Below are positions 4,442 to 17,044 of a DNA stretch of 24,748 nt, one piece after another; position 1 is the first letter of the stretch, and each line of letters opens with the position of its first letter. The stretch covers positions 1-24,748 of the forward strand of contig JAFROA010000197.1 in assembly GCA_017429885.1 (NCBI GenBank). Reading direction: 5' to 3'. The notes under the pieces are model-generated. The model was not told the origin of the DNA and did no database searches. It worked only from the letters and a program-made list of their open reading frames with translations. The position numbers were made by a program, and so were the translations under genes. Source of the stretch: Bacteroidales bacterium. Lineage in GTDB: Bacteria; Bacteroidota; Bacteroidia; Bacteroidales; UBA932.

Positions 4442-4445
4442 GATT

Positions 4446-4568
4446 ATCTGGGAAGGTGGTCCCCTTCCGGAACCACTGCCACCCTCGGCAAGTTAAGAGG
4501 GGGGACCGGAGCGAAGCGAGCGGTGGGGCCGCGAAGCGGCGGTTACGAAGGGGACCACCTTCCCAGAT
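4446..4568. repeat. Long inverted repeat (hairpin A) in front of clpB
   Basis: The outer arms, 4446-4466 and 4548-4568, are perfect reverse complements over 21 bases. The 81-base interior holds weaker internal pairing (AACC with GGTT next to the arms), a small GCCGC-GAA-GCGGC hairpin (about 4529-4541) and AGCGAAGCGAG at 4510-4520. The outer arm ends six bases before the Shine-Dalgarno sequence of clpB. No T-run follows, so it is not a typical intrinsic terminator. A second hairpin with different arms but the same 11-base interior motif lies just after clpB. Confidence 0.85.
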
Positions 4569-4574
4569 AGAAAC

Positions 4575-4588: not shown

Positions 4589-6784
4589 ATGGACAACAGA
4601 AACAATAACAACAATTTGCAGTTCCTTCCGAAGTTCGCCATCAACCTTAATGAGCAAGCTTCCCAAGGCAAACTCGACCCTGTCATCGGCAGGGATGACG
4701 AGATAAGAAGGGTTCTCCAGATCCTTAGCAGGAGAACCAAGAACAACCCGATCCTGGTCGGTGAGCCCGGAGTCGGAAAAACCGCCATTTCCGAAGGCAT
4801 CGCCCAAAAGATTATCGACGGCGACGTCCCGGAGAACCTTAAAAGCAAGAAGGTCTACTCCCTCGACATGGGAGCCCTGATCGCGGGAGCCAAATACCAA
4901 GGAGAGTTCGAGGAAAGGCTTAAAGGTGTTGTCAAAGAAGTGGTTGACAGCGCCGGAGAGATTATCCTGTTCATAGACGAGATCCACACCCTCGTCGGCG
5001 CCGGAAGGACATCCGGAGCCATGGACGCCTCTAATATTCTTAAACCTGCCCTCGCGAGGGGTGAGCTCAGGACCATAGGATCCACCACTCTGGACGAGTA
5101 CCAGAAATATTTCGAGACCGACAAGGCCTTGGAAAGGCGTTTCCAGATGGTCATGGTCGACGAGCCCTCAACGGCCGAGTCGATAGCGATATTGAGGGGG
5201 CTTAAGGAGAAATACGAGAACCACCACAGGGTCAAGATTGAGGATGACGCCTTGATAGCCGCTGTCAACCTGTCTCATAGGTATATAACCAACCGCTTCC
5301 TTCCGGACAAGGCTATCGACCTAGTTGACGAGGCCGCGTCCAAGCTGAGGCTTGAGATGAACTCCGTCCCGGAGCCTCTGGCTGAGCTCAACAGCGACAT
5401 CCGTCAACTTGAGATTGAGAAAGAGGCTGTCAAGAGGGAGGGAACCTCCTTGAAATCAGAGAGAATCGAGAAGGACCTCACCGACAAACTCGCAGAGAGG
5501 GACGCCCTCATGAAACGCTGGAATGACGAGAAAGACATACTCTCCGGCCTTCAGGAAGCCCGTCAGAAGATGGAGGACTATAAGATCGAGGCCGCATCTG
5601 CCGAAAGGGCCGGTGATTATGGCAAGGTGGCTGAGCTGCGCTACGGAAAGATGGCGGAGATACAGAAAACCATCGACGAGCTTTCCGCCAAGCAAAGCGC
5701 CATCGAGGATCCTATAGTGACAGAGGCTGTAACTCCCCAGGATATTGCCGAGGTCGTGGCCAAATGGACCGGAATACCTGTCCAGAAGATGCTTGAGAGC
5801 GAGAAGGAGAAACTCCTCCGCATTGAGACCGAGCTCCACAAGAGGGTGGTCGGGCAGGATCAAGCGATCCAGGCCGTAGCGGACGCTGTAAGGCGCTCAA
5901 GGGCAGGTCTTTCCAACGAGAAAAGGCCTATCGGTTCCTTCCTGTTCATGGGTACCACAGGTGTCGGAAAAACCGAGTTGGCGAAGGCGTTGGCAGAGTT
6001 CCTCTTCAACGACGAGAATATGATCACCCGTATTGACATGAGCGAATATCAGGAAAGGCACACCGTGAGCCGTCTCGTGGGTGCGCCTCCGGGATACGTT
6101 GGTTACGACGAGGGTGGTCAGCTTACCGAGGCCGTCCGCAGGAAGCCATATTCGGTGATTCTGCTGGACGAGATCGAGAAGGCCCATCCGGATGTGTTCA
6201 ACGTGCTTCTGCAGGTGCTTGACGACGGTCGTCTGACCGACAACAAGGGACGCACGGTCGATTTCAAGAATACCATCTTGATAATGACCTCAAATGCCGG
6301 TTCTGACATAATCGCCTCCTACATGGAGTAGTTGCCTCAGATCGGGCTTCCAGGCTCCGACCCCACCGGGGAAATGAAGTCTATAGCCAAGAGGCGTGAG
6401 ATGCTTGAGGAGTGCAAGGATAAGGTGATGGACGTGCTTAAGATGACGGTCCGCCCCGAGTTCCTAAACAGGATTGATGAGATAATCATGTTCGACCCTC
6501 TGACTCGTAATGACATCAGGGATATTCTCCACATCCAGATGCGCCAGCTCCAGGATAAATTGGCTGAGGAGGGTGTGACGATTGATTTCACCAAAGCATT
6601 TGAGGACTGGATGGTCGAGGGAGGTTATGACCCGGCTTATGGCGCCAGGCCCATTAAGAGGTTGATGCAAAGGGAACTTGTCAATCAACTCGCCAAGGAA
6701 ATCCTGGCCGGAAGGGTCCATAAGGACTCAGCCATCGAGGTCGATTCCGTCGGCGGCAGCATCGTCGTCCGCAACAAATCCTGA
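4589..6784 (+). pseudogene. clpB: ClpB-like AAA+ disaggregase lacking N-domain, interrupted by in-frame TAG
   Basis: Codons from 4589 to 6784 form one ClpB-like frame of 732 codons including the stops, broken only by TAG at 6329-6331. Order: Asn-rich leader (1-10); first AAA+ domain with Walker A GEPGVGKT (58-65) and Walker B ILFIDEIH (about 125-132); coiled-coil M-domain (about 275-395), which marks ClpB rather than ClpA; second AAA+ domain with Walker A GTTGVGKT (about 455) and Walker B ILLDEIEK (about 522). The TAG follows the sensor-1 segment MTSNAGSD by seven codons. After it come NRPEFLNRID-type arginine-finger sequence (RPEFLNRIDE) and the C-terminal small domain with GARPIKR. The usual N-domain of about 145 residues is absent. 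ClpB works as a hexamer with DnaK to dissolve aggregates. Without readthrough, the 580-residue product lacks the second arginine finger and sensor 2 and should be inactive. An ATG at 6374 could restart the C-terminal piece. A sequencing error remains possible. Confidence 0.85.
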
Positions 6785-6801
6785 CACGGCATATCTGACA
6801 C

Positions 6802-6887
6802 TCCACGTCAGGACACTGGCCTAAGGCCGTACTCAGCCGCAGCGAAGCGAGAATGGACGCGGCCGTGGCCAGGTGTCCTGACGTGGA
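6802..6887. repeat. Long inverted repeat (hairpin B) between clpB and the sugar kinase gene
   Basis: The left arm (6802-6821) pairs with the right arm (6867-6887) over about 20 bases with a single bulged C. The loop contains an inner GCCGC/GCGGC pairing and AGCGAAGCGAG at 6841-6851, the same 11 bases found inside hairpin A. It fills the space between two convergent genes and could act as a two-way transcript end, although no T-run is present on either side. It could also be a dispersed palindromic repeat. Confidence 0.8.
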
Positions 6888-6892
6888 CAAGC

Positions 6893-16678: not shown

Positions 16679-17044
16679 CTAATTGACAGAATATCCAGTG
16701 GATTTAAGCAACTCTATGGCATGTTCAAAGCATTCAGATTTTGTCAGGATGTAATCCGTGTTGAATGTGGAGATGGCGAAAATACCGACTTTCCCGTCGG
16801 CAAGCACTTTTGAGATATCCGCAAGAATACCAATAAGCGAGAAATCCAATGTGCCTTCTATGCGGAAAGCACGCCATCCATCATCACGTTCCACTGTATT
16901 GCCAGGCACTAACCTGGTAGGGCATACTAACGAATTCTCCTCATCGGTTGAGCCTATGAACACAAAAGGAGATGACAAGTTGATTTCCCCATAATCCTTA
17001 ACCTTGCAGATGCTGAATATTTCATCAATAATCTTAAGTGTCAT
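16679..17044 (-). CDS. ACT domain-containing protein
   Basis: A 121-residue cytoplasmic protein. The C-terminal half carries an ACT-like domain of the type found in small stand-alone proteins: FSLIGILADISKVLADGKVG, then IFAISTFNTDYILTK and a closing helix (ECFEHAIELLKSTGY). ACT domains bind amino acids and usually control metabolic enzymes; the ligand here is unknown. The N-terminal half resembles the partner ACT-like repeat of these proteins. It is preceded by a -7 element (17080-17073) and ends in TAG. No operon partner is near: the next minus-strand gene starts 175 bases downstream, and I see nothing recognisable in that gap. Confidence 0.85.
   Translation of the reverse strand: MTLKIIDEIFSICKVKDYGEINLSSPFVFIGSTDEENSLVCPTRLVPGNTVERDDGWRAFRIEGTLDFSLIGILADISKVLADGKVGIFAISTFNTDYILTKSECFEHAIELLKSTGYSVN

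Follow-up and report, generated by a model that had tools for sequence, protein, structure and literature searches.

Disaggregases of the ClpB/Hsp104 family (TIGR03346) require the arginine finger and the small domain of their second ATPase domain (D2) for function. TAG codons lying within conserved genes are known from genomes with stop-codon reassignment, where TAG is read as glutamine or as pyrrolysine. A third described case is the nonsense pseudogene of draft genomes, for which Cooley and Wright (2024; PMC11017572) provide the comparison. The clpB locus of the 24,748-nt contig analyzed here in full (JAFROA010000197.1, from the draft assembly of an uncultured gut-type Bacteroidales bacterium; hereafter the window) can be compared with all three. 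It shares D1, M-domain, D2, arginine finger, sensor 2, and D2 small domain with ClpB/Hsp104, but these are split between a head and a tail; it differs further by the lack of the N-domain, a trait of its genus, and by a premature TAG at residue 581, found in the window only. With reassigned genomes it shares the in-frame TAG in a conserved gene, but in its own genome TAG terminates genes normally and part of RF1 is present. With draft-genome pseudogenes it shares the single in-frame stop, the conserved frame, and the intact relatives, although here the stop may be assigned either to a real mutation or to an assembly error. The genus of the window and its close relatives is probably Candidatus Cryptobacteroides, as judged from the names of two database proteins (P0163 and P0177) and from taxonomy. 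No paper joining Cryptobacteroides and a stop codon was found, and the literature matches listed for clpB premature stops and N-domain loss contain nothing on this case.

The window sequence and its list of open reading frames place the TAG at 6329–6331 (forward strand), in frame with the ATG at 4589. The head (4589..6331, forward strand; 580 codons and then the TAG) encodes D1, the M-domain, and most of D2, including Walker A and B and sensor 1. Past the TAG the frame is open from 6332 to a TGA at 6782–6784, and this tail (6332..6784, forward strand; 150 sense codons and the TGA) encodes the arginine finger, sensor 2, and the D2 small domain. Apart from the TAG, the whole frame counts 732 codons; read through with X at the TAG, it gives 731 residues. 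The head matches positions 145–724 of the TIGR03346 profile (NCBIfam, ClpB) and the tail positions 727–852; Pfam identifies AAA, AAA_lid_9, and AAA_2 in the head and ClpB_D2-small (PF10431) in the tail. By these two sources, the tandem D1 and D2 with the M-domain between them is present in the head. Judged by profile matches, a single protein is encoded, with the tail following on from the head, and the frame is unbroken in a close relative (G017); chance is excluded as the source of the tail. The original prediction of an in-frame TAG in an otherwise intact ClpB-like gene is thus confirmed. The arginine-finger and sensor-2 residues that it described as well preserved (R622, G685-A686-R687-P688, and K690-R691) are indeed invariant in an alignment of 30 sequences. 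The D2 arginine finger, sensor 2, and small domain are encoded, yet after the TAG, and so not in the same polypeptide as the head.

Both parts score below the equivalog cut-off of TIGR03346 (986 bits for the head and 137 for the tail, against 1232), and so does the stop-free relative P0003 (1118 bits), whose match starts at profile position 146, the N-domain being absent. Frames that are not cut short have 683–766 codons in the rows of the genus, against 863–923 in those of other families. On sequence comparison, ClpB without an N-domain is therefore normal for the genus rather than a lesion. Since this was the sole apparent further defect, the claim that the gene carries no other lesion stands. 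Outside these rows, the N-domain is also missing from the ClpB of another Bacteroidales genome (L052, 710 aa). The ClpB structure 1qvr of the PDB aligns with residues 11–726 of P0003, and a model of P0003 (mean pLDDT 78) has a helix at 572–581 and the next one at 592–620. Residue 581 is thus predicted to be the end of a helix, just before a loop and the long helix that leads to the arginine finger.

The closest clpB found is that of genome G236 (97.9% nucleotide identity over 1912 aligned bases, 4589–6500), followed by that of G017 (91.8% over 2202), whose unbroken frame of 732 codons is 98.5% identical to the window over 731 residues. Comparison of the codon in these close relatives, which had been proposed as a check, shows AAG (lysine) in both at the place of the TAG. 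Among 154 distinct loci crossing the site (21 more end short of it), the residue is lysine in 45, arginine in 29, asparagine in 12, another residue in 24, and a gap in 43; the sole stop is that of the window, the other 153 having none. In this alignment the TAG is a private change, derived from a lysine codon. The origin first suggested, a C-to-T change from CAG, does not agree with the AAG aligned in both G236 and G017, and glutamine is rare at the site (3/154). The stretch following the site is variable in length, and 11 of the 30 loci examined lack it. In these genus loci (L024–L034), D2 is shorter by about 40 residues (about 571–617 in P0003), missing after sensor 1 and ahead of the arginine finger; many genus matches end near residue 571, which fits this D2 deletion. 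A 3-aa ClpB deletion in Bacteroidetes is described in PMC1887533. A further genome, G073, was rejected as a closer relative: it is 99% identical over 233 residues, but its DNA is only 86.6% identical, and the contig does not extend as far as the site.

Could the TAG be read as an amino acid in this organism? PfkB (6893) and a sialate-esterase-like gene (13125) end in TAG, and in G236 and G017 their counterparts do so at the matching position; hence TAG is a true stop at these two positions as originally claimed, and the third gene named, ending at 16679, does end in TAG and has no counterpart in the stretches compared. In the genome of the window (G000), TAG ends 23 of 99 sampled ORFs of at least 150 aa, clpB included, a few of which may be counted twice as some sampled stretches overlap. 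Of the frames that stay open beyond another TAG, the longest (436 codons, on L210) carries an ATG of its own at the second codon and resembles an independent gene. Two results could speak for reassignment. A full-length RF1 was not found in this genome by family search, but prfA starts normally on its contig C78 and is cut after 40 codons by the contig end, which explains the missed match; 58 of 61 genus genomes, G017 among them, have RF1 above the cut-off. Weak pylS-like matches occur in 23 of 41 genomes, including the incomplete genome of the window (20.3 bits against a cut-off of 178), but none of the 41 has pylS above the cut-off, and the family also matches 13 of 14 control genomes, one of them above the cut-off. 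Recoding is contradicted by these data, and its probability is negligible, in agreement with the original view that general recoding is unlikely, given that TAG ends conserved genes and that the start of RF1 is present.

The comparison with relatives also gives indications on the age of the change. Between the window and G236, the clpB head has 36 synonymous and no nonsynonymous codon differences, and the tail has 4 synonymous and 2 nonsynonymous ones (the stop and S598); with G017 taken as judge, both arose in the lineage of the window. Between the window and G017 there are 136 synonymous and 3 missense differences in the head and 32 and 7 in the tail; between G236 and G017 there are 140 synonymous and 3 nonsynonymous in the head and 26 and 6 in the tail. 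The tail thus has a faster baseline than the head, and the tail of the window shows no decay beyond its own baseline. As the tail is also faster between G236 and G017, its rate does not point to prolonged decay. Constraint on the tail still seems to be in place, which suggests either a recent event or an error. Of the two possibilities first raised by the conserved tail, a very recent event or continued use, the former is thus favored and the latter has no positive evidence.

Elsewhere, 11 stretches compared between the window and G236 (4142 codons) have 306 synonymous and 38 nonsynonymous differences, and no further stop or frameshift was seen in them. Among the window genes comparable with G236 or G017, clpB is the only broken one; those that we take by reading to be a CDP-alcohol transferase, ACT, Gfo, MFS, NagA, and NagB have no counterpart in the stretches compared, and a 553-aa gene has one only in G017. 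Two stops at residues 14 and 15 of PheS in G017 were discarded as breakage, the ORF beginning upstream of the likely real start.

The main rival to a mutation is an error of the consensus or of strain mixture, with a sense codon in the organism and the TAG stemming from a base-calling mistake or from a minority strain in the metagenome assembly. A lone private substitution in a fragmented draft genome (68% complete, 466 contigs) fits such an error. Some of the breaks in clpB of the genus look technical: among 107 loci, 4 have runs of N and 18 run off an end, and in G298 a TAG lies near the contig end. Moreover, many internal-stop pseudogenes of assemblies are errors, chiefly at low coverage, according to PMC11017572. 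Against this, random errors would mostly be missense changes or indels, yet the 580-codon head is free of nonsynonymous differences from G236, as are four stretches taken together (a sigma-54 regulator, SecG, the ClpB head, and a 140-aa gene; 1251 codons), and the nearer contig end is more than 6 kb from the site. An error is therefore a possible explanation, though not the favored one.

A different alternative is that both parts are used, either by readthrough, by an unseen suppressor, or by reinitiation at TTG or ATG, giving a second polypeptide that would complete D2 in trans. The break is predicted to fall between two helices, in a stretch that is variable in length and missing in 11/30 loci; the tail frame is intact with unchanged catalytic residues. 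An in-frame TTG (6332) follows the TAG directly, and the first in-frame ATG, 14 codons further (6374..6376, forward strand), is the putative start of a predicted 136-aa protein (P0123). However, none of the other loci among the 154 has a stop at this site, and the nearest relatives have either a one-piece gene (G017) or a different break (G236). Among the best 120 of 2179 matches, the only sequence identical to the tail is P0123 itself, and no common split site was seen by eye among separate tail proteins, whose starts vary (30 sequences). A search for a suppressor tRNA, proposed at the outset, gave no CTA anticodon among the 15 tRNA genes found in this 68% complete genome. Readthrough or a two-piece protein, both listed in the original prediction, thus remain without positive evidence, and use of both parts is improbable.

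How often clpB is broken was assessed on 107 distinct loci of the genus, read by the D1 motif (from 131 loci, 118 with the motif before removal of duplicates; the set was purposely enriched for odd rows). Eighty of these are open for at least 640 codons to a stop; the others comprise the 18 running off a contig or locus end, the 4 with runs of N, and 5 broken without N. The latter are the window, G236 (a frame-breaking 58-nt deletion of its own in the same clpB tail), G208 (a frameshift), G298 (whose TAG precedes the contig end by about 20 codons), and G397. In G397 (L161) an in-frame TAA lies near the C-terminus, with the frame conserved beyond it. Among the 13 loci without the D1 motif, 10 were aligned and have no internal stop; G150 (L197) changes frame. 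The breaks are scattered, so residue 581 does not stand out among them. Read by eye, the C-terminus of the database protein P0005 (805 aa) is aberrant beyond GARP. Several apparent breaks were rejected: runs of N account for the seeming loss of the M-domain in G026 and for the interruptions in G375, G385, and G241, and stops tabulated in the matches of relatives (L157, L031, L253, L254, and 20 further places) are in no case inside the gene. The tabulated stops were left out of the final count; they also missed the stop of G397, which lies outside the match, and rows such as those of G146 and G202 are unread.

A clpB-type match is found in 388 of 400 genomes and in 149 of the 150 better ones, at a threshold that admits ClpC-like matches too. 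A ClpB-grade match is present in at least 61 of 77 genomes in a set picked for weaker or no matches, and in 80/80 and 80/80 in two other sets. Among the matches listed for the 77 genomes, where short clpB pieces may be missed, nine have only matches of 46–56% identity (G090, G133, G159, G173, G197, G247, G329, G352, and G355), G325 and G402 have no row, and five have no match at 1e-20. Such cases include fairly complete genomes: only ClpC-like proteins of 51–56% identity are among the matches listed for G173 (98% complete) and for G133, G159, and G247 (90–91%), and no match is listed for G071 (95%). By sequence matches, clpB may thus be absent outright in some genomes of the genus, and its loss tolerated; this weakens the objection to a real loss and leaves the odds as they were. 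A second clpB, another proposed check, was not found in the 68% complete genome of the window. An AAA protein on its contig C253 (L002) was rejected as a candidate, having 50–53% identity and a ClpC-like layout; we presume it, by reading, to be ClpC-like.

The leader of clpB contains a palindromic repeat (4445..4569, no strand assigned) with arms of 23 nt each at 4445–4467 and 4547–4569. It has 22 matches in its own genome (itself, its two arms, and 19 elsewhere), and is hence a dispersed repeat, with no Rfam match at the gathering threshold. The corresponding insertion, about 140 nt in the genome of the window and absent in G236 and G017, was rejected as a second lesion, a like element being present at the same place in L133, L134, L139, and L144, with different arms by eye. 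A second palindromic stretch lies just 3′ of clpB (about 6787–6892) and is partly matched in G236 and G017.

Taken together, the TAG is probably a recent loss-of-function nonsense mutation, in a draft genome where no other clpB was found. A single-base change would have converted a lysine codon bordering the variable loop of D2 to TAG, and translation is expected to stop there, giving a 580-residue product. Because the arginine finger, sensor 2, and small domain of D2 would be missing from it, this product is predicted to be a non-functional disaggregase; we infer both this and the reality of the base. The downstream frame would persist because the time has been too short for decay. The stop is private, the frame otherwise conserved, and relatives are intact, as in a recent nonsense pseudogene. 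That clpB is removable is indicated by the null mutants made in Pseudomonas putida (PMC4263515), and the separate 58-nt tail deletion of G236 fits a weak constraint on clpB here. Against a mutation, most genomes of the genus retain clpB, and the tail shows no decay past its own baseline. The original interpretation holds in taking TAG as a true stop and the event as very recent, and fails in deriving the stop from CAG.

The breaks in the window and in its nearest relative, in two draft genomes, suggest weak constraint on clpB. As each of the two has lately broken the same tail in a different way (a stop and a 58-nt deletion), one may speculate that this clade is shedding ClpB while most of the genus keeps it, or still has a working split ClpB, its two pieces connected via the variable loop; this is doubtful. 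The TAG of the window lends no support to recoding or suppression. Should it prove to be an error, it would be a further example of why isolated in-frame stops in metagenome-assembled genomes call for reads before they are interpreted. If the mutation is real, another conserved stress chaperone would have been lost in a host-associated bacterium, with the copy of a close relative broken independently.
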